Shown here piece by piece: positions 2,598 to 12,695 of a stretch of DNA of 64,000 bases (the stretch's first letter is position 1; each line of letters starts with the position of its first letter). Where the stretch lies: the NCBI RefSeq assembly GCF_000429645.1, contig NZ_AUCG01000023.1, forward strand, positions 62,001 through 126,000, in the 5' to 3' direction. The DNA comes from Niveispirillum irakense DSM 11586. Lineage in GTDB: Bacteria > Pseudomonadota > Alphaproteobacteria > Azospirillales > Azospirillaceae. The translations under genes and the position numbers were made by a program. The notes beneath the pieces were generated by a model. It was not told the DNA's origin and did not search any database. It saw only the letters and a program-made list of their open reading frames with translations.

Positions 2598-3185
2598 TCA
2601 CAACTCCATCTCGAACGCGGTAATGACGCTCTGGGCAATGTCGGCCAGCTTGCGGTTCTGCTTCATGGCTGTGCGTCGCATCAGCGTATAGGCATCCTCT
2701 TCCGACAGGCCGCGGTTTTTCATCAACAGGCCCTTGGCGCGTTCCACCAGCTTGCGGTCCTGCAATTTGGCCTGCGCCTCGTCCCGTTCCCGGCGCAGCC
2801 GGTCAAAGGCGTTGAAGCGGCTGACCGCCGTTTCCACAATCGGCTTGATCCGGTCCTGCCGCAAGCCATCCACCACATAGGCGCTGACGCCGGCCTCAAT
2901 GGCGGCATGGATCATCTGGCTGTCGCTCTGGTCCACAAACATGGCGATGGGTCGCTGCACCAGCCGGCTGACCTGGAACATCTGTTCCAGCGTGTCGCGG
3001 TCCGGGTTTTCCAGATCGATGATAATGACATCCGGGGCCAGCGCCTGGATGCGGGCCAGCAGATTGACCGAAGGGCCGATGGTGGAAACGCGCACCCAGC
3101 CGGCTTCCACCAGCCCACGCTCCACCACCGCCGCCCGGTCGGGGCTGCCATCAATGATCAGGATGGAAAGATCGGCATTGCCCAT
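2598..3185 (-). CDS. nasT: NasT-type ANTAR response regulator (transcription antiterminator)
   Basis: 195 residues: a receiver-like domain (about 5-120; ILIIDGSPDRAAVVERGL, DVIIIDLENPDRD), a short coiled linker, then an ANTAR domain at about 135-192 (LVERAKGLLMKNRGLSEEDAY, ending LADIAQSVITAFEMEL). ANTAR proteins bind pairs of hairpins with hexanucleotide loops in nascent mRNA and stop a terminator from forming. The matching target lies in front of nirB at 5316-5385. It is translated just before nasS. A palindromic repeat and 245 bases separate it from the upstream transporter, so it may have its own promoter. The RBS is weak. Confidence 0.92.
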   Translation of the reverse strand: MGNADLSILIIDGSPDRAAVVERGLVEAGWVRVSTIGPSVNLLARIQALAPDVIIIDLENPDRDTLEQMFQVSRLVQRPIAMFVDQSDSQMIHAAIEAGVSAYVVDGLRQDRIKPIVETAVSRFNAFDRLRRERDEAQAKLQDRKLVERAKGLLMKNRGLSEEDAYTLMRRTAMKQNRKLADIAQSVITAFEMEL

Positions 3186-3430: not shown

Positions 3431-4801
3431 TTATTCCGCCGCTACAACCACAGCCCCCGTCTGCCGCGTCGCCGCATCCCGTTCGGCCAATGCCGCTTCC
3501 AGCCGGCGCTTCTCCTCCGCCGCCACTTCAGGCGAGAAGCGGATGGCGAGTGCCGCGAAAGAGGCCACCGTGACGCCGATGCCCAGGTAAAACAGCCCCT
3601 GCTGATAGGTCAGGCTTTCTGATTTGAACAGGAATCCGGCCGCCACTGCACCCATATTCCCGCCAGCCCCGACAATGCCGGCCACGGCCCCCAGTGCCTT
3701 GCGGTTGATGAAGGGGACGATGCCGAAGGTGGCACCGCAGCCCATCTGCACGAAGATGGAGAACAGCATCATCGCCACCACGGCGGCGACCAGAACCCCC
3801 ATCTGGGAGAACAGGATCAGCGCCAGCCCTTCCAGGAACAGCACGGCGAACAGCAGCAGCACCCGGCCCCGCAGGCCGGATTTCGTCGCCAGCCGGTCAG
3901 AGACATAGCCGCCCAGCGTGCGGGCAAACAGGCACATGGCACCGAACAGACCGGCGATCATGCCGGCGGTGGCCAGATCCAGCTTGAACTTGTCGAAGAA
4001 ATAGATCGCCGCAATATTGTGCAACGTCAGTTCCACGCCAAAGCAGGCACCATAGGCGATGAACAGGGCCCAGACGCGGATATCGCGGGCGGCCACGGCG
4101 AAGCTCTGCATCCCGCCCAACCCGTCGCGCCCTGCAGCCAGCGCACCGCTGGACCGCAGTTCAGCGAAATTGCCCTCCGGGCAATCCTGGGTGAAGTTCC
4201 AGTAGAGCCAGGCAGCGACCAGCAGCACCAGCCCCGGCACCACCATGGCCAGCCGCCAGCCCATGGTCTGTTCCACGCCCAGCGACACGATGGCGGCCAT
4301 GATCAGTGGCATCACCATCTGGGTGATCCCGCCGCCCAGATTGCCCCAACCCGCCGTGGTGGCATTGGCCGTGCCCACCACATTGGGCGCGAACATCACC
4401 GAGGTATGGTACTGGGTGATGACGAAAGAGGCACCGATGGCCCCGATGGCCAGCCGGGCCAGCAGGAAGGTTTCATAGGAATGGGCCAGCCCGATACACA
4501 TGACCGGGATGGAGCCGAGAACCAGCAGCCCCGTATAGGTTTTACGCGGCCCCAACCGGTCGCAAAGCGGCCCGATCAACAACCGCACCAGCACGGTGAT
4601 GGCGACCGAGGCAATGATGGTATTGCCGATCTGGGCCTTGGTCAGGCCCAGATCGTCGCGCACCACCGCCATCAGGGGGGCGATGCCGAACCAGCCGAAA
4701 AAGCAGAGAAAAAACGCGAACCACGTCAGGTGAAAGGCGCGCATCTGCACTGTCTTCAAGGAGAACAGATCGATGCGCGTTGCTTTATGCCGGATTTCCA
4801 T
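3431..4801 (-). CDS. nitrate/nitrite transporter, MFS NNP family (NarK/NasA)
   Basis: 456 residues with about 12 membrane segments. The nitrate signature GWGNLGGG is present near residue 150, together with the NNP-type first helix (FHLTWFAFFLCFFGWFGIAPLM) and conserved arginines in helices 2 and 8. It should import nitrate (or exchange nitrite) for the assimilatory reductases encoded divergently. The N-terminus carries a 20-residue basic cytoplasmic stretch. It is followed by the palindromic repeat and then nasT-nasS on the same strand. Distinguishing nitrate import from nitrite export needs experiment. Confidence 0.9.
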   Translation of the reverse strand: MEIRHKATRIDLFSLKTVQMRAFHLTWFAFFLCFFGWFGIAPLMAVVRDDLGLTKAQIGNTIIASVAITVLVRLLIGPLCDRLGPRKTYTGLLVLGSIPVMCIGLAHSYETFLLARLAIGAIGASFVITQYHTSVMFAPNVVGTANATTAGWGNLGGGITQMVMPLIMAAIVSLGVEQTMGWRLAMVVPGLVLLVAAWLYWNFTQDCPEGNFAELRSSGALAAGRDGLGGMQSFAVAARDIRVWALFIAYGACFGVELTLHNIAAIYFFDKFKLDLATAGMIAGLFGAMCLFARTLGGYVSDRLATKSGLRGRVLLLFAVLFLEGLALILFSQMGVLVAAVVAMMLFSIFVQMGCGATFGIVPFINRKALGAVAGIVGAGGNMGAVAAGFLFKSESLTYQQGLFYLGIGVTVASFAALAIRFSPEVAAEEKRRLEAALAERDAATRQTGAVVVAAE

Positions 4802-5286
4802 CGTGCGAGCCCCTACGTCCCGGGCCGCTGGCGCTTGATTGTCTGCGCGCGGCCGCTTGAGTTCACCCGTCGGGCCATCCGCACCGTCACGATATCCAAC
4901 ACGATATCATCCACGCTGCGGGCGGCCATGCGATAAGGCACCTGTCGCCGATCCGGCCGGGGGGCCGTGTGATCGGTTTCAGGCGCCATTGCCTGGTCGT
5001 CCGCCATTGGACGATGTCGTGTCTCTCCCTGCGTCGGGAGTGCTGGGTATTCAGCAACGGTCATGCCAATTCCGGTGCAATGCAGTAGGGGGTTGATAGA
5101 TAAGGATAATCACGCCTTCGGTTCCAGATCGGTGCAAGGGGGGCCTGTTCGCTGTTGCACAAATTAAAGGCTTCCATCAGCAGGTGCCTTGATTTTGCGC
5201 AATAATCACCCGTGTTCATGGCCCTGCTGCAAACCTCCCATTCTAAGGATCAAGCCTTATCAAATGCTTAGTGTCCGGCCCCCCGG

Positions 5287-5303
5287 TTGGCACGGCTTTC
5301 GCT
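5287..5303 (+). promoter_or_regulatory. sigma-54 (RpoN) promoter of nirB-nirD-nasA-cysG
   Basis: TTGGCACGGCTTTCGCT matches the -24/-12 consensus YTGGCACGRNNNTTGCW with one change (TCGC for TTGC) and exact 12-base GG-to-GC spacing (5289 to 5301). It predicts transcription starting near 5314, two bases before the first leader hairpin. GGTGCA half-sites at 5074-5079 and 5131-5136 might belong to NtrC sites, but their partner halves are poor. Confidence 0.75.
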
Positions 5304-5313
5304 AAGATCAGGG

Positions 5314-5395
5314 CAGGCCGGCAACGCTGCTGGCCCCTGCTGCCCTGGAAGGGGTGGCGACATAGGGTGCCCAAGGCCGGGCCCCACCGGATAAT
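5314..5395 (+). promoter_or_regulatory. ANTAR (NasT) RNA target: two hexaloop hairpins in the nirB leader
   Basis: Hairpin P1: GGCCGGC (5316-5322), loop AACGCT (5323-5328), GCTGGCC (5329-5335). Hairpin P2: stem 5366-5372 with loop AAGGCC (5373-5378) and 5379-5385, with one mismatch. Both loops are six bases with A at position 1 and G at position 4, the published mark of ANTAR-binding RNAs. An intrinsic terminator begins 11 bases after P2. The 30-base gap between P1 and P2 is longer than in many examples. Confidence 0.75.
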
Positions 5396-5453
5396 GGCGT
5401 CCGAACATGTGATTGACCCCAACGGGTCGGCTGCATGGTCGGACGCCTTTTTT
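5396..5453 (+). terminator. leader terminator (attenuator) in front of nirB
   Basis: GGCGTCCGA (5396-5404) pairs perfectly with TCGGACGCC (5439-5447) and is followed by TTTTTT (5448-5453). An inner GACCC/GGGTC hairpin (5415-5428) strengthens the fold. It ends 36 bases before the nirB start codon, so without antitermination the operon would be cut off. Confidence 0.85.
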
Positions 5454-5489
5454 ATTGCGCATTTTTTGCGCGAGCGAGGATGGACCGAC

Positions 5490-7970
5490 ATGACGACCAA
5501 CCATTCTTCTCCCCCCGACGGCGCCCCCAAGCCCCGCCTTGTCGTGATCGGCAACGGTATGGCCGGTATCCGCGCCGTGGAAGAATTGCTGGACCGGGCC
5601 CCCGGCCTTTATGACATCAGCGTCTTTGGCGCTGAACCACGGGTCAATTACAACCGCATCATGCTGTCGCCGCTGCTGTCGGGGGAAAAGACCTTCGACC
5701 AGATCGTCATCAATGATCGGGACTGGTACAGCGACAACGGCATTACCTTGTATGCTGGCGATGCGGTGGAGATGATCGACCGCCAGCGGCAGGTCGTCAT
5801 CGCCACATCCGGGCTGGAATGCCCCTATGACCGGCTGCTGATCGCCACCGGCTCCATGCCCATTGTCATTCCCATTCCCGGTGCCCGCCTGCCCGGCGTT
5901 GTCACCTTCCGCGATGTGGATGATGTGGATGCCATGCTGGCCGCCAGCGCCAAGGGTGGCCATGCTGTAGTGATTGGTGGTGGCTTGCTGGGGCTGGAAG
6001 CCGCCGTCGGGCTGAAGGCGCGCGGCATGGATGTGACGGTGCTGCATCTGGCTGGCCATCTGATGGAACGCCAGTTGGATGCCTCTGCCGGCCATCTGCT
6101 GGCCAAGGAACTGGAACGGCGCGGGCTGAGTGTGCTGACCGCGGCCGACACTGCCGCCATTTTGGGCGAAAGCCATGTGACCGGCGTGGCGTTGAAGGAT
6201 GGCAGGGAACTGCCTGCCGATCTGGTGGTGATGGCTGTCGGCATCCGCCCGGATACAAGGCTGGCGGCGGCTGCCGGGCTGGAGGTCGGGCGCGGCATCC
6301 TGGTCGACGACCATATGGTGACGAACGACCCCGCCATCATGGCCGTGGGTGAATGCGTGCAGCATCGCGGTTCCTGCTATGGGTTGGTGCAGCCGCTGTT
6401 TGAGATGGCCAAGGTGCTGGCCGACCATCTGGCCGGGCGCAAGGGCGCTGGCTATGCCGGTTCCGTCACCTCCACCAAGCTGAAGGTCACCGGCGTGGAT
6501 GTGTTCTCCGCCGGGGATTTCAGCGGCGGGCCGGGGACCGAAGATATCGTGTTCCGCGATGCCGGGCGCGGCATCTATAAGCGGATCGTGCTGGAAGAAG
6601 GCCGCATCAAAGGGGCCGTGCTGTATGGCGATACCGGGGATGGCGGCTGGTATTTCCAACTGTTGAAGGCGGGGGAGGATGTGTCGCCCCTGCGTGATAC
6701 GCTGATCTTCGGCCAGGGTTTCGCCCCGTCGGAAGGCGGTGCGGCAAACCCTACCGCCGCCGTTGCGGCGCTGCCTGATACGGCGGAAATCTGCGGCTGC
6801 AACGGCGTCTGCAAGGGCACCATCGTCAAAGCGATCAATGAGAAGGGCCTGACCACGCTGGATGCAGTGAAGGCCTGCACCAAGGCGTCGGCATCCTGTG
6901 GTTCCTGCACCGGTCTGGTGGAAGGGCTGTTGGCCCATACGCTGGGCGGGGATTATCAGGCCGCCGGCGTCAAGCCGATGTGCAAATGCACCGACCATGA
7001 CCATGACAGCGTGCGCCGCCTGATCCGCGTGCAGGGCTTGAAATCCATCCCCGATGTGATGCAGGCTCTGGAATGGAAGACACCCGATGGCTGCCATTCC
7101 TGCCGCCCGGCGTTGAATTACTATCTGCTGGCCTCCTGGCCCGGTGAATATGTCGACCACGCCGCCAGCCGCTTCGTGAATGAACGGGTCCACGCCAATA
7201 TCCAGAAGGACGGCACCTATTCCGTCGTGCCGCGCATGTGGGGCGGCCTGACCAATGCCAGCGAGTTGCGCGCCATCGCCGATGTGGTGGAGAAGTTCGA
7301 TATCCCCACCGTGAAGGTGACAGGCGGCCAGCGCATCGACCTGCTGGGGGTGAAAAAGGATGATCTGCCCGCCGTTTGGGCAGACCTGAACGCGGCGGGT
7401 ATGGTCTCCGGCCACGCCTATGGCAAGTCGCTGCGCACGGTGAAGACCTGCGTCGGGTCCGACTGGTGCCGCTTTGGTACGCAGAAATCGCTGGAGGTCG
7501 GCGTCAATCTGGAACGCATGACCTGGGGTTCCTGGACGCCGCACAAGTTCAAGATGGCCGTTTCCGGCTGCCCGCGAAACTGTGCCGAAGCCACCATCAA
7601 GGATTTCGGCGTCATCGCCACCGATGGCGGTTTTGACCTGCTGGTCGGCGGCAATGGTGGCATCAAGCTGCGCGGCACCGACCTGCTGGCCAAGGTGACG
7701 ACGGAAGAGGAGGTGCAGGAATATTGCGCTGCCTTCATGCAGCTCTACCGCGAAGAGGCGCATTATCTGGAACGTACCGCCCCCTGGATTGAGCGGGTGG
7801 GGCTGGATTTCGTCAAGGCCCGCGTCGTGGATGACGCAGAGAACCGCCGTGCCCTGCATGAACGGTTCCTGGCCAGCCAGCGCCATGCCCAGGTCGACCC
7901 CTGGGCCGAACGCGCCCCCGGTACGGCCGCCGCCGCCCGTGATTTCCGCACGCTTGCTACTGTGGAGTGA
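5490..7970 (+). CDS. nirB: assimilatory nitrite reductase, large subunit NirB
   Basis: 826 residues catalysing reduction of nitrite to ammonia with NAD(P)H. Order: FAD/NAD(P)H dehydrogenase domain (1-about 400; VVIGNGMAGIRAVEEL, then VVIGGGLLGLEAA), BFD-like [2Fe-2S] domain (C435, C437, C470, C473), then the sulfite/nitrite reductase half with the siroheme-[4Fe-4S] cysteines C654, C660, C694 and C698 (TCVGSDWC, SGCPRNC). All cofactor residues are present. ATG 5490 is chosen because GAGCGAGGA lies just upstream and the preceding DNA is the untranslated regulatory leader. nirD follows after 5 bases. Confidence 0.97.
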   Translation: MTTNHSSPPDGAPKPRLVVIGNGMAGIRAVEELLDRAPGLYDISVFGAEPRVNYNRIMLSPLLSGEKTFDQIVINDRDWYSDNGITLYAGDAVEMIDRQRQVVIATSGLECPYDRLLIATGSMPIVIPIPGARLPGVVTFRDVDDVDAMLAASAKGGHAVVIGGGLLGLEAAVGLKARGMDVTVLHLAGHLMERQLDASAGHLLAKELERRGLSVLTAADTAAILGESHVTGVALKDGRELPADLVVMAVGIRPDTRLAAAAGLEVGRGILVDDHMVTNDPAIMAVGECVQHRGSCYGLVQPLFEMAKVLADHLAGRKGAGYAGSVTSTKLKVTGVDVFSAGDFSGGPGTEDIVFRDAGRGIYKRIVLEEGRIKGAVLYGDTGDGGWYFQLLKAGEDVSPLRDTLIFGQGFAPSEGGAANPTAAVAALPDTAEICGCNGVCKGTIVKAINEKGLTTLDAVKACTKASASCGSCTGLVEGLLAHTLGGDYQAAGVKPMCKCTDHDHDSVRRLIRVQGLKSIPDVMQALEWKTPDGCHSCRPALNYYLLASWPGEYVDHAASRFVNERVHANIQKDGTYSVVPRMWGGLTNASELRAIADVVEKFDIPTVKVTGGQRIDLLGVKKDDLPAVWADLNAAGMVSGHAYGKSLRTVKTCVGSDWCRFGTQKSLEVGVNLERMTWGSWTPHKFKMAVSGCPRNCAEATIKDFGVIATDGGFDLLVGGNGGIKLRGTDLLAKVTTEEEVQEYCAAFMQLYREEAHYLERTAPWIERVGLDFVKARVVDDAENRRALHERFLASQRHAQVDPWAERAPGTAAAARDFRTLATVE

Positions 7971-8485: not shown

Positions 8486-11134
8486 ATGCCCACCCCCGAA
8501 ATCCGCACCACCTGTCCTTATTGCGGCGTTGGCTGTGGCGTGATCGTCAGTGCCACGCGCGATGGCTGGGCTGTGGGTGGTGATCCCGACCATCCCGCCA
8601 ACCAGGGACGTCTCTGCTCCAAGGGGGCGGCCCTGATCGATACTGTTGCGGCGGAGGCCAAAGGCGATGTGCGCCTCACCCAGCCGATGGTCGATGGAAA
8701 CCCCGTCCCCTGGGACAGGGCCATCCGCACCGTGGCCGACCGGTTGTCCGCCACCCTGGCCGACCATGGCCCCGATGCCGTTGCCTTCTACGTCTCCGGC
8801 CAGTTGCTGACGGAGGATTATTATGTCGCCAACAAGCTGATCAAAGGCTTCATCGGCAGCCCGCATATCGACACCAACTCCCGGCTCTGCATGGCCTCCA
8901 CCGTCGCCGGGCATAAACGCGCCTTCGGGGCCGATGTGGTGCCCGGCTGTTATGAGGATCTGGAACTGGCCGATCTGGTGATCTTGGTTGGCTCCAACCT
9001 TGCCTGGTGCCATCCGGTGCTGGCCCAGCGGCTGCGCGCGGCGCGTCAACAGCGCGGCACCCGCGTGGTGTTGATCGACCCGCGCGGCACCGCCAGTTCT
9101 GACCTGGCCGACCTGCATCTGGCGCTCAAACCCGGCAGCGATGTCGCTTTGTTCAACGGCCTGCTGGCCCATCTGGAACAGGCCGGTGCCATCGACCGCG
9201 ACTATGCCCTGCGCCATGTCCAGGGGCTGGAAGCAGCGCTGGACGCAGCATACGCGGATGCCGCCGATGTGGCGGAAAGCTGCAACCTGGACCCCGCCGA
9301 CCTTGCCACCTTCTACGACTGGTTCACCACTACGCCGCGCACCGTCACCGTGTTCAGCCAAGGCGTGAACCAGTCGTCGCGCGGGACGGACAAGGTGAAT
9401 GCCATCCTGAATGTGCATCTGGCCACGGGTCGGGTGGGCAAGCCGGGTTCCAGCCCCTTTTCCGTCACCGGCCAGCCCAACGCCATGGGCGGGCGGGAGG
9501 TGGGGGGGCTGGCCAACCAGTTGGCGGCCCATATGAACCCCGATTATCCGCTGGATGTGGAACGGCTGCGCCGGTTCTGGAAGGCACCGGCTTTGAAGGG
9601 CGGCCAGGGCTTGAAGGCGGTGGACATGTTTCGCGCCATCCGCGACGGGCGGATCAAGGCGCTGTGGATCATGGCGACCAACCCCGCCGTCAGCCTGCCG
9701 GAATCCGATCTGGTACGCGAGGCGCTGGCCTTGTGCCCCACGGTAATCGTCTCCGATATCGTTGATGATACAGACAGCCTGCACCATGCCCATATCCGCC
9801 TGCCGGCGCTGGGCTGGGGGGAGAAGGACGGCACCGTTACCAATTCTGAACGCCGTATTTCCCGCCAGCGCCCCTTCCGCGTCGGACCGGGGGAGGCAAA
9901 ACCCGATTGGTGGATCATGACCCAGGTGGCCAGGGCCATGGGCTTTGGGACGGCCTTCCCCTATCGCACGGCGGTGGAGATTTTCCGCGAACATGCCGCC
10001 CTGTCGGATTTTGAGAATGATGGCTTGCGCGCCTTTGATATCGGCGCCATGGCGCGGGTACGGGACGGCGATTACCAGCAGATGGCCCCCTTCCAATGGC
10101 CGCTGCCGGCGGGGGCCAAGCGGGGGACCGACCGGCTTTATGGCGACGGGCGGTTCAGCCACACCAATGGCAAGGCCCGCATGATCGCTGTGCGCCAGCA
10201 GGCCCCGGTGGAACGCGCCTCCCTGCGCTTTCCGCTGATTGCCAATACCGGGCGTTACCGCGACCAGTGGCACACCATGACCCGCACCGGGCTGGCCCCC
10301 CGCCTGTCGGCCCACCGGCCTGAACCGCTGCTGGAGATCAATCCGCAGGATGCGCTGGCCGCTGACCTGATGGAGGGCGACATCGCCCGTGTCACCAGCC
10401 TGCAGGGCGCCGTGCTGATGCGGGTGGCGGTGACGGAGGCACAAGCCCAGGGGCAGATATTCCTGCCCATGCATTGGAACGACCTTTACGCCAGCCATGG
10501 CGGGATCGGACGGCTGTTCGCCGGCCATGTCGATCCCATTTCCGGCCAGCCGGAAAGCAAGCATGTGCCGGTACGGGTGGAACGGCTGGTCACCCAATGG
10601 CAGGCCCTGCTGATGACCAGCCGCCCGCTGGACCTGTCCAACGTCTCCTATTGGGTCCGCCGGGATGCCGGCCCCTGCCAGCATTACCGGCTGGCGGGAG
10701 ATGCCCCGCCTGCCCTGGCAGGGCTGGAAGATTGTGAACATCTGGAATTCACCGATCCTGCCCGCGCGCTCACCCGCCATGCCTGGCTGGAAAAGGGCCG
10801 GCTCGTGGCCTGCCTGTTCGCCGCCCCCGATCTGCCCAGCCTGGCCACCGACTGGCTGACCGGCCTGTTCACCCAGCCCAGCCTGTCACCGACGGATCGC
10901 GCCCGGCTGCTGGCCGGGCGGCCGCCGGAGGCCGATGCCTGTGCCACGAAAGGTGCGCTGATCTGCGCCTGCAACAATGTTGGCCGCAATGCCATCGACG
11001 CCGCCATCCGCAGCGGGAACGCCTGCACGACCGCCGAGGTCAGCCGTCTGACCGGGGCCGGCACCGGCTGCGGTTCCTGCCTGCCCGAGATCAAGGAGAT
11101 TTTGCGCCATGTCGCACCTGTCGCCGCTGCCTGA
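8486..11134 (+). CDS. nasA: assimilatory nitrate reductase catalytic subunit NasA (Mo-bisMGD)
   Basis: 882 residues. The N-terminal CPYCGVGCGV plus LCSKG bind a [4Fe-4S] cluster. The molybdopterin oxidoreductase core follows (about 60-560) with the SRLCMAS segment expected at the Mo site, then the MGD-binding C domain (about 600-720). At the C-terminus a BFD-like [2Fe-2S] domain (ICACNN at about 827, GCGSC at about 862) should receive electrons from a reductase. There is no signal peptide, so the enzyme is cytoplasmic and assimilatory. It stands 186 bases after nirD and overlaps cysG by 26 bases. A separate NasB-type flavoprotein is not seen here. Confidence 0.95.
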   Translation: MPTPEIRTTCPYCGVGCGVIVSATRDGWAVGGDPDHPANQGRLCSKGAALIDTVAAEAKGDVRLTQPMVDGNPVPWDRAIRTVADRLSATLADHGPDAVAFYVSGQLLTEDYYVANKLIKGFIGSPHIDTNSRLCMASTVAGHKRAFGADVVPGCYEDLELADLVILVGSNLAWCHPVLAQRLRAARQQRGTRVVLIDPRGTASSDLADLHLALKPGSDVALFNGLLAHLEQAGAIDRDYALRHVQGLEAALDAAYADAADVAESCNLDPADLATFYDWFTTTPRTVTVFSQGVNQSSRGTDKVNAILNVHLATGRVGKPGSSPFSVTGQPNAMGGREVGGLANQLAAHMNPDYPLDVERLRRFWKAPALKGGQGLKAVDMFRAIRDGRIKALWIMATNPAVSLPESDLVREALALCPTVIVSDIVDDTDSLHHAHIRLPALGWGEKDGTVTNSERRISRQRPFRVGPGEAKPDWWIMTQVARAMGFGTAFPYRTAVEIFREHAALSDFENDGLRAFDIGAMARVRDGDYQQMAPFQWPLPAGAKRGTDRLYGDGRFSHTNGKARMIAVRQQAPVERASLRFPLIANTGRYRDQWHTMTRTGLAPRLSAHRPEPLLEINPQDALAADLMEGDIARVTSLQGAVLMRVAVTEAQAQGQIFLPMHWNDLYASHGGIGRLFAGHVDPISGQPESKHVPVRVERLVTQWQALLMTSRPLDLSNVSYWVRRDAGPCQHYRLAGDAPPALAGLEDCEHLEFTDPARALTRHAWLEKGRLVACLFAAPDLPSLATDWLTGLFTQPSLSPTDRARLLAGRPPEADACATKGALICACNNVGRNAIDAAIRSGNACTTAEVSRLTGAGTGCGSCLPEIKEILRHVAPVAAA

Positions 11135-12695
11135 CCGGGCCGACCCCATGCCCTATTTCCCCATCTTCCTGGACCTGCGCGGACGGGTCGTGCTGCTGGT
11201 CGGCGGTGGGGAGGCCGCCGCCAGCAAGGCGCGGCTGCTGATCCGTGCTGGCGCCGATATCTTTCTTGTCGCTGAGAATTTATCGCCTGAAATGGCGGAA
11301 CTGGTGGAGCAGGGTGCCATTTCCCGGATTGAACAGCGGTTTCGGCCCGGCCTGCTGGATGGTGCCACGCTTGCCTTCGACGGGGCTGGTGATGCTGAAC
11401 TGACGGATCGCCTCCGCGCTGCCGCCTTTTCCCGCAATGTGCCGGTGAATGTCATCGACGTGCCGGACCAGTGCGATTTCACCGTGCCGGCCATTCTGGA
11501 CCGGTCACCGATCATCGTCGCTATTTCCACCGGGGGCGGCGCGCCGGCATTGGCGCGGAATATCCGGCAGCGGCTGGAACTGGCCATTCCCGCCTCTTAC
11601 GCCGGGATCGCCCGTGCCGCCGCCCACTGCCGTAAGCGGGTCCGTTCTGCCCTGGACGGGTTCCGGGACCGGCAGCGTTTTTGGGACGCGCTTTTTACCG
11701 ATGACCGGCTTATGGGCTTGCCGGAAGCTGCCGCCATCGAGGCCATTGAAGCGGCCCTGACAAAGCCGGAAAATGAGCCCCCCGCCGGATCGGTCACCCT
11801 GGTCGGTGCCGGTCCCGGCGATCCCGGCCTGCTGACCGTAAAGGCCGTGCAGGCCATCGCCACCGCCGATGTGATCCTGCATGATGCGCTGGTGCCCGAT
11901 GCCATCCTGGCACTGGCCCGCCGGGAAACGCGGCTGATCTCCGTCGGCAAGCGCGCCGGTTGCCGCTCCGTGCCGCAGGAATTCACCAACCGGCTGATGG
12001 CGAGCGAGGCTAAGCGGGGCCTGCGCGTCGTGCGGCTGAAAGGGGGGGACCCTTTCATCTTCGGTCGGGCGGGAGAAGAAGCCGCGTTCCTGCGTGAGCA
12101 GGGCGTGAGCGTGGAGATCATTCCCGGCATCACCGCAGCCATGGGGGCCGCGGCCCAGTTGGGCATCCCCCTTACCCATCGCGGTGTCGCCCGGTCGCTG
12201 CGCATCGTCACCGCCCATTGCCGGACGGATGAGGAAACCGACCTGATCGACTGGCACAGCCTTGCCGATGCCAACACGACCCTGACGCTTTACATGGGCC
12301 GGGACCGGTTGCCTATGATCGTCGCTGATCTGATGGCGGCGGGATTGCCGCCCGACACCCCCGCGGCCCTGGTCGCTGACGCGACCCGCCCGGCCATGAA
12401 GGTCTGGTATGGGGCGCTGGCCGGGTTGCCCGCCCTCACCGCAACGGACGATAATAAGGCACCCTCCTTGATCCTGGTCGGCAAGGCAGTGGCGCTGGCG
12501 CCGGGCTGGTCAACGGGGCAGCCTATGCTGGTGGATCCACCGGATAGGGCGTTTTGCCAGAGCTTTTGGGAACAGCCTTTGTCAACAGGGCTTGGGGCGC
12601 GGCAAATCCTCAGCAATGGCCAGAAGGGCGTCGGGCTTCACGACGACGATTTGCTGGCGCCCGCCCGCGGTCAAACCATCACTTTCCCATGCTGA
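11109..12695 (+). CDS. cysG: siroheme synthase CysG (dehydrogenase/ferrochelatase plus uroporphyrinogen-III methyltransferase)
   Basis: 528 residues. The N-terminal precorrin-2 dehydrogenase/ferrochelatase (about 14-220; VLLVGGGEAAASKARLL) is followed by the SUMT domain (about 228-470; VTLVGAGPGDPGLLT, RLKGGDPFIFGRAGEE, GITAAMGAAAQLGIPLTHR). It makes siroheme for NirB, which explains its place in the operon. AAGGAG 10 bases before ATG 11109 supports that start, which lies inside nasA. The last 50 or so residues extend past the usual CysG end and lie antisense to the end of the convergent regulator gene (114 bases of overlap). Confidence 0.95.
   Translation: MSHLSPLPDRADPMPYFPIFLDLRGRVVLLVGGGEAAASKARLLIRAGADIFLVAENLSPEMAELVEQGAISRIEQRFRPGLLDGATLAFDGAGDAELTDRLRAAAFSRNVPVNVIDVPDQCDFTVPAILDRSPIIVAISTGGGAPALARNIRQRLELAIPASYAGIARAAAHCRKRVRSALDGFRDRQRFWDALFTDDRLMGLPEAAAIEAIEAALTKPENEPPAGSVTLVGAGPGDPGLLTVKAVQAIATADVILHDALVPDAILALARRETRLISVGKRAGCRSVPQEFTNRLMASEAKRGLRVVRLKGGDPFIFGRAGEEAAFLREQGVSVEIIPGITAAMGAAAQLGIPLTHRGVARSLRIVTAHCRTDEETDLIDWHSLADANTTLTLYMGRDRLPMIVADLMAAGLPPDTPAALVADATRPAMKVWYGALAGLPALTATDDNKAPSLILVGKAVALAPGWSTGQPMLVDPPDRAFCQSFWEQPLSTGLGARQILSNGQKGVGLHDDDLLAPARGQTITFPC

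Follow-up and report, generated by a model that had tools for sequence, protein, structure and literature searches.

The leader of nirB in the window analysed here (a stretch of 64,000 nucleotides from Niveispirillum irakense DSM 11586) reads as an ANTAR-kind antitermination leader controlled by NasS-NasT, in a three-hairpin form and placed under a sigma-54 promoter. We give this reading a probability of about 0.85. The canonical pair with a short linker is made by the second and third hairpins (H2 and H3), and the first (H1) is an extra upstream hairpin. The antiterminator is H3, not H2. The kind of switch and the AND gate made of sigma-54 and antitermination are already known; what deserves attention is the layout with three hairpins.

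The leader lies between two divergent sets of nitrate assimilation genes:

5490..7970, plus strand: nirB, nitrite reductase large subunit (TIGR02374, 956.8 bits against a cut-off of 578.35)
8486..11134, plus strand: assimilatory-type nitrate reductase with a BFD domain at the C-terminus, named from its domain set and context
11109..12695, plus strand: cysG, siroheme synthase
3431..4801, minus strand: narK-type nitrate/nitrite transporter (TIGR00886, 314.5 bits against a cut-off of 311.7), divergent from nirB
2598..3185, minus strand: nasT, with receiver and ANTAR domains, the sole ANTAR match in the genome
1585..2601, minus strand: nasS-like nitrate sensor (NMT1_2), named from its family and position

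The top models for the product of 8486..11134 were Fdh-alpha and NasC, each under its own cut-off. Judged by domains and neighbourhood, the locus encodes a NasS-NasT system, i.e., a NasT with receiver and ANTAR domains adjoining an NMT1-like NasS. The genome has one sigma-54 gene (rpoN), and one of its 78 matches to the NtrC model passes the curated cut-off (ntrC). The closest named relatives by NirB (97-98% identical) are Niveispirillum sp. SYP-B3756 and Azospirillum sp. RU38E. The reading frame of nirB is open upstream as far as 5271; a coding role of the leader was considered and set aside.

Transcription of nirB is expected to start from the following elements:

5287..5303, plus strand: sigma-54 (RpoN) promoter of nirB, TTGGCACGGCTTTCGCT, of the -24/-12 type with GG-N10-GC
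5314, plus strand: predicted start of transcription, which the promoter geometry puts about 12 nt downstream of the -12 GC

The promoter TTGGCACGGCTTTCGCT has one mismatch to TGGCACRNNNNTTGCW. The number of sigma-54 matches with at most two mismatches in the window (25) is about that expected by chance (24.4); support for the call comes from its position and conservation. In 18 of 20 aligned leaders, TGGCA was found at a distance of 98-106 nt from the H3 anchor, on its 5' side; in one other (L047) it lies at 91 nt, and in the last (L049) the corresponding stretch consists of N. The site thus combines GG-N10-GC, TGGCAC/TTGC-like elements and a conserved position. The sequence-only reading that preceded this analysis had placed an antitermination leader of the NasT type immediately downstream of a sigma-54 promoter at 5287-5303, with nasT and nasS near nirB. 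All of this is supported: the promoter has the right spacing, and nasT and a nasS-like gene were both found close by. We regard NtrC as the putative activator of this promoter. The Paracoccus-type pattern for NtrC sites was found 119 times against 111.2 expected, i.e., at chance frequency. According to passages on Pseudomonas stutzeri, mutation of ntrC lowers nas expression there (PMC8443478).

The leader itself (5314-5489) folds better than all of 200 dinucleotide shuffles (z = -4.6), and it contains these elements:

5316..5335, plus strand: H1, GGCCGGC-AACGCT-GCTGGCC, a hexaloop with A1/G4, about 2 nt past the predicted start
5337..5359, plus strand: spacer hairpin between H1 and H2, with no A1/G4 hexaloop, stable in folds
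5365..5385, plus strand: H2, GGG-U-GCCC-AAGGCC-GGGC-CCC, with a bulged U and A1/G4, the P1 of the short-linker pair
5388..5403, plus strand: H3, CGGAT-AATGGC-GTCCG, with A1/G4, the antiterminator (P2), overlooked in the sequence-only reading
5396..5404, plus strand: terminator 5' arm, GGCGTCCGA, common to the loop and 3' stem of H3
5439..5447, plus strand: terminator 3' arm, TCGGACGCC
5448..5453, plus strand: terminator U-run (T6)

The targets of ANTAR proteins carry at least two hairpins with 6-nt loops of the A1/G4 kind, and this leader has three (AACGCT, AAGGCC, and AATGGC). In the minimum free energy fold, an A-U pair closes the loop of H1 down to a tetraloop. We filed the leader as a variant because the recognition element is defined by exactly two hairpins and H1 is a third conserved hexaloop hairpin. 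The two hairpins that had been proposed (H1 and H2) and the terminator, with its 9-bp stem (5396-5404 paired with 5439-5447) and T6, are all present. They had been called a complete leader, which did not hold: H2 has no contact with the terminator (they are 10 nt apart and have no common bases) and it is H3 that excludes it. The long linker noted between H1 and H2 is real, although it measures 29 nt instead of 30 and holds the spacer hairpin. It does not lie within the active pair, which is H2-H3 with a linker of 2 nt. Hence the active pair falls inside, and H1-H2 outside, the range of 2-25 nt accepted for actinobacterial ANTAR RNAs in the passages describing them (PMC8164766). The 2-nt linker counts against our reading to some extent because cutting the eutP linker of Enterococcus faecalis to 3 nt lowered induction, according to the passages on that system (PMC3369931). 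No Rfam family matched anywhere in the window at gathering thresholds. A short hairpin (GCGCA-TTTTT-TGCGC, 5457-5471) lies between the terminator U-run and the ribosome-binding site of nirB, and by eye a similar sequence is found in Niveispirillum relatives.

Loop positions 4-6 and the 3' stem, which make up the 3' half of H3, double as the 5' arm of the terminator (5396-5403 are common to both), and the two structures are thus mutually exclusive. Overlap of P2 with the terminator characterises the ANTAR motif in the published passages (PMC3369931; PMC3369936); H3 has it (5388-5403 against 5396-5404) and H2 does not. Partition-function folds of growing transcripts gave probabilities for H3 of 0.80, 0.96, 0.90, 0.57, 0.92, and 0.95 at transcript ends 5403, 5408, 5415, 5425, 5432, and 5440, respectively. 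At ends 5448 and 5455 the probability was 0.00 for H3 and 1.00 for the terminator. In simulated folding, H3 therefore forms first and is displaced when the terminator is completed.

We aligned 20 leaders, seven Niveispirillum-like (including that of the window), two of Caenispirillum, ten of Thalassospira, and one of a further alphaproteobacterium; they are closely related in groups, and the counts below are of sequences, not of evolutionary events. Lack of conservation of the hairpins in related genomes, which had been named as grounds for abandoning the claim, did not occur: the H3 hexaloop hairpin is present in 20/20 leaders, with 99% of its cells paired. The columns of H3 are nearly invariant and no pair changed on both sides, which is conservation without covariation. 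In H2, one pair is A-U in ten leaders, G-C in nine and unpaired in one. Over H1-H2-H3 and all 20 rows, 20 cells changed on both sides (0/500 shuffles as high), as did five pairs (7/500 shuffles as high), while further pair types were no higher than in shuffles (263/500); slid registers all scored lower. These counts include four rows of the Niveispirillum lacus clade (L031, L035, L051, and L006) whose H1 is shifted in the alignment by about two columns and from which some of the H1 cells changed on both sides come. With the remaining 16 rows, 100% of the H1 cells are paired, four of the five pairs show changes on both sides (2/500 shuffles), and the covariation score, 0.485, exceeds the mean of the shuffles, 0.253 (0/500 as high). 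The loops of H1 vary (AACGCT, AACGGC, AACGAC, AGTGTC, ACAGAT, AAGGTC, AAAGCT, and AATGGC) with A1 and G4 constant. H1 is weak in the N. lacus clade, where by eye it has an internal A-A mismatch, and in L051 its loop is GGCGTT, which has lost A1. The terminator has one pair that is G-C in ten leaders and A-U in the ten others; its covariation rests on this pair, and two of the five measures were matched by most shuffles (345 and 500 of 500). Because the varying pair includes position 5 of the H3 loop, this loop changes along with the 3' arm of the terminator while A1 and G4 are kept. By eye, the leaders of Caenispirillum and Thalassospira have other stems at the place of the spacer hairpin.

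A covariance model of the nirB-type leader (R1) matched 18 of 385 genomes of the class at E ≤ 0.01. At E ≤ 0.0017 it matched 15 genomes, all of them among the 59/385 with a NasT match (E ≤ 1e-20); four of the 15 (G000, G005, G008, and G226) supplied sequences to the model and 11 are independent of it. The three other matches (L094, L095, and L096, E 0.004-0.008) were rejected, as their central stretches showed no A..G.. hexaloop hairpins; one of them is in a genome with NasT (G134). Elsewhere in the genome of the window, R1 matches had E values of 0.33 and above and were rejected, leaving the nirB leader alone. R1 did not report the narK leader described below, and its silence elsewhere in the genome is therefore weak.

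We then surveyed 140 regions around nasT genes, 100 from Alphaproteobacteria and 40 from other Proteobacteria. The set comprised 59 of the 62 NasT places (all except those of G000, G008, and G321), one additional region whose leader was already known (G021:C3), and regions of further genomes, which were picked for spread of genera (40 of 55 in Alphaproteobacteria and 40 of 47 outside). An A..G.. hexaloop hairpin overlapping a terminator was found 52 times in the alphaproteobacterial regions and 39 times in the others; 41 and 35 of these have at least one further A..G.. hairpin in the 100 nt upstream, and ten and ten have at least two further ones, where 11 control loop classes together gave one. 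The leaders with an overlapping hairpin and at least one upstream, minus two that are likely spurious (L161 and L224), make a set of 74 out of 76. This selection inflates the frequencies of single slots, and the informative figure is the joint count; each related genome counts on its own, and some contribute two leaders. The distances of A..G.. hairpins to the P2 loop form two clusters, one at about -15 to -30 and the other at about -40 to -90. Under a relaxed stem rule, with hairpins counted as near when their loop starts 15-36 nt ahead of the P2 loop and as mid/far at 37-100 nt, both slots are filled in 24/74 leaders (12 alphaproteobacterial and 12 other), whereas 14 of 15 control loop classes gave 0 and G..G.. 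gave 4. The other 50 leaders lack one or both slots under this rule, which shows that three hairpins are not obligatory.

A sigma-54 site (at most three mismatches of 13, GG-N10-GC fixed) precedes the P2 loop by 50-190 nt in 52/74 leaders, against 0/74 for control stretches 260-400 nt upstream. Sigma-54 with antitermination is thus the common state among these leaders. The AND gate that had been proposed for nirB stands as regards initiation and readthrough as separate inputs, but not as something special to this locus. Promoters start at a median of -95 relative to the P2 loop in leaders with near and far hairpins (n=17), -70.5 in those with a near hairpin only (n=24), and -90 in those with a far one only (n=11); the first two differ significantly (Mann-Whitney, p 1.8e-6). 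In an earlier version of this test (16 and 25 leaders with medians of -95.5 and -70, respectively; p 1.7e-7), hairpins 5' of the predicted start were excluded from the count, a filter that by construction biases the test towards this outcome; without the filter, one far hairpin in 30 is located 5' of that start. In the filtered test, the 5'-most hairpin after the predicted start lies at a median of 10 nt (near-plus-far, 0-23) or 8 nt (near-only, 0-38). Hence the transcript tends to begin just ahead of its first hairpin, and this tracking favours the view that H1 belongs to the device.

Which hairpins NasT would use can be read differently. In an ordinary two-hairpin ANTAR leader made of H2-H3, H1 would be a hairpin stabilising the 5' end whose resemblance arose by chance. 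This is unlikely. The 24 of the 52 promoter-bearing leaders that have a near hairpin only fit it, as does the weakness of H1 in one Niveispirillum clade. Against it stand the joint presence of near and mid/far hairpins well beyond the control classes, the compensatory changes in H1, the constancy of A1 and G4 in loops that otherwise vary, and the presence of at least two upstream hairpins in 22/48 partly hand-picked leaders where shuffles give 0.13. One could instead take H1 and H2 as the NasT pair, blocking the terminator at a distance, with H3 incidental. These two hairpins have C-G loop-closing pairs in the window and stronger stems (-14.0 kcal/mol for H1 and -6.9 for the core of H2, against -5.9 for H3). 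We nevertheless hold this to be improbable: the 10 nt between H2 and the terminator mean that the H1-H2 pair alone could not exclude it, the nearly invariant H3 sits where the known motif has its P2, and the 29-nt linker exceeds that of known ANTAR RNAs.

That the structure is a plain attenuator or a constitutive terminator outside NasT control is very improbable given the A1/G4 hexaloops, the overlap of P2 with the terminator, the adjacent nasT and nasS, and the co-occurrence with NasT in all 15 genomes. A point that counts against the three-hairpin NasT leader, which we prefer, is the loop-closing pair of H3: it is U-G in 19/20 aligned leaders and C-G in 1/20, whereas C-G is favoured in the SELEX results reported for NasR (PMC7496416).

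The elements, their conservation, their exclusive pairing and the order of folding are those observed or computed above; the chemistry and binding of NasS-NasT would follow characterised relatives, i.e., Paracoccus, where passages describe NasT binding the nasA leader RNA once nitrate releases it from NasS (PMC3795266), and Bradyrhizobium, from which passages also give these steps (PMC4724949; PMC6759348). Nitrogen limitation would permit initiation through RpoN, probably with NtrC, and RNA polymerase would make H1, the spacer hairpin, H2 and H3 in this order. When nitrate is lacking, NasS would hold NasT, H3 would be brief and displaced as the 3' arm of the terminator emerges, and transcription would stop before nirB. 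When nitrate is present, the freed NasT would bind the A1/G4 hexaloops; on H3 and H2 it would occupy the 5' arm of the terminator, allowing polymerase to read on through nirB and the gene for nitrate reductase. H1 would offer a further NasT site at the extreme 5' end, most likely serving to load or retain NasT before H3 exists. Such preloading is favoured, and free NasT of Paracoccus is reported to be oligomeric in the passages on it (PMC3795266).

Several characterised leaders resemble this one. The nasA leader of Paracoccus denitrificans is alike in having NasS-NasT, hairpins before a nas operon and an Ntr input (PMC3795266; PMC5424462). In the passages on it two hairpins (HI and HII) were tested, and three A1/G4 hairpins with a switch between H3 and the terminator, as in the nirB leader, are not described; the 2013 paper mentions "a series of regulatory hairpins", for which it does not show the data. 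Nitrate assimilation in Klebsiella oxytoca depends, in the passages describing it, on Ntr (NtrA, NtrB, and NtrC) plus antitermination by NasR (PMC5424462). Its nasF leader shares with that of nirB the Ntr-dependent expression, the nitrate-dependent antitermination, and P1/P2 hexaloops with P2 overlapping the terminator, but the one-component NasR replaces NasS-NasT and, as described there, there are two hairpins (PMC3369936; PMC7496416). The eut leaders of E. faecalis, targets of EutV, also have dual A1/G4 hexaloop hairpins with P2 exclusive of the terminator; they differ, in the passages available, by the control of EutV through phosphorylation, by linkers of 5-12 nt and by having two hairpins per leader (PMC3369931). 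The literature searched, which covered few subscription journals, gave no description of three ANTAR hairpins, which speaks only weakly for novelty.

Models of ANTAR switches place one protein dimer on two hairpins. It is possible, though less likely than not, that three-hairpin arrays are a second, widespread layout of NasT-controlled leaders in Proteobacteria, in which a dimer or higher oligomer of NasT would assemble on the first hairpins once these emerge from the polymerase and be handed to the antiterminator hairpin when it appears. If true, the array would buy time against formation of the terminator or steepen the response to nitrate, and the window would hold two such leaders back to back (nirB and narK), each with its own sigma-54 promoter. 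Scanning a nitrate leader for just two hairpins can select the wrong pair, as happened here. The nasAB leader of Azotobacter vinelandii (AEM 2012) is said to direct NasT antitermination of a nitrate assimilation operon, to go by the title of that work.

The survey gave some further observations. Hexaloops with G1, often GA.G.., occur where A..G.. was expected, in the near slots of five leaders (L084, L127, L140, L143, and L164) and in the narK leaders. GA.G loops fill the near slot in 7/74 leaders, against 0-2 for CA.G, TA.G, GC.G, GT.G, and GG.G; a G may be tolerated at the first position of ANTAR loops. A genome of the same genus (G005) has a second leader, L097, with hairpins GGGGACC-AATGGC-GGTTCCC and CGGAC-AATGGC-GTCTG and a terminator; by eye, the start of the gene that follows looks like an outer-membrane porin, a position hinting at a wider NasT regulon. 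Four nirB-type leaders of Sphingomonas and Brevundimonas (L054, L055, L058, and L072) have AAGGAT/AAGGAC loops in the first hairpin and AAGGCC/AAAGCC loops in the hairpin on the side of the terminator; no sigma-54 match was found in them by a pattern that also missed the promoters of Thalassospira.

The divergent narK gene has a leader with its own hairpins:

5053..5069, minus strand: second sigma-54-like promoter, for narK, with one mismatch
5025..5040, minus strand: hairpin CTCCC-GACGCA-GGGAG, with a G1/G4 loop, 2 nt past the predicted start (5042)
4997..5014, minus strand: hairpin TCGTCC-AATGGC-GGACGA, with A1/G4
4980..4995, minus strand: hairpin CAGGC-AATGGC-GCCTG, with A1/G4, whose 3' half pairs alternatively with 4937-4944
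4813-4929, minus strand: 38-codon reading frame (ATGGCCGCC...) between the hairpins of the leader and the start of narK

Among the loci collected, the core of the middle hairpin was found in 16 distinct leaders, including that of the window. At -22 to -30, 16/16 of these narK-type leaders have a hairpin with an A..G.. or G..G.. hexaloop, and 5/16 have the downstream one. A sigma-54 site (at most three mismatches) was found in 16/16, and a narK start within 420 nt in 13/16. When the whole window was scanned for tandem perfect hexaloop hairpins, the narK pair was one of two A..G.. matches, and control classes gave 0-3; it is by conservation that this pair stands out, which its number alone would not achieve. 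In the alternative long stem, the last hairpin pairs with a segment just before an AUG, and the U-run is weak. The leader may have an output other than intrinsic termination, e.g., on translation, because no good U-run follows this stem. The 3' arm of the stem (4944-4937) ends 7 nt before the ATG of the 38-codon frame.
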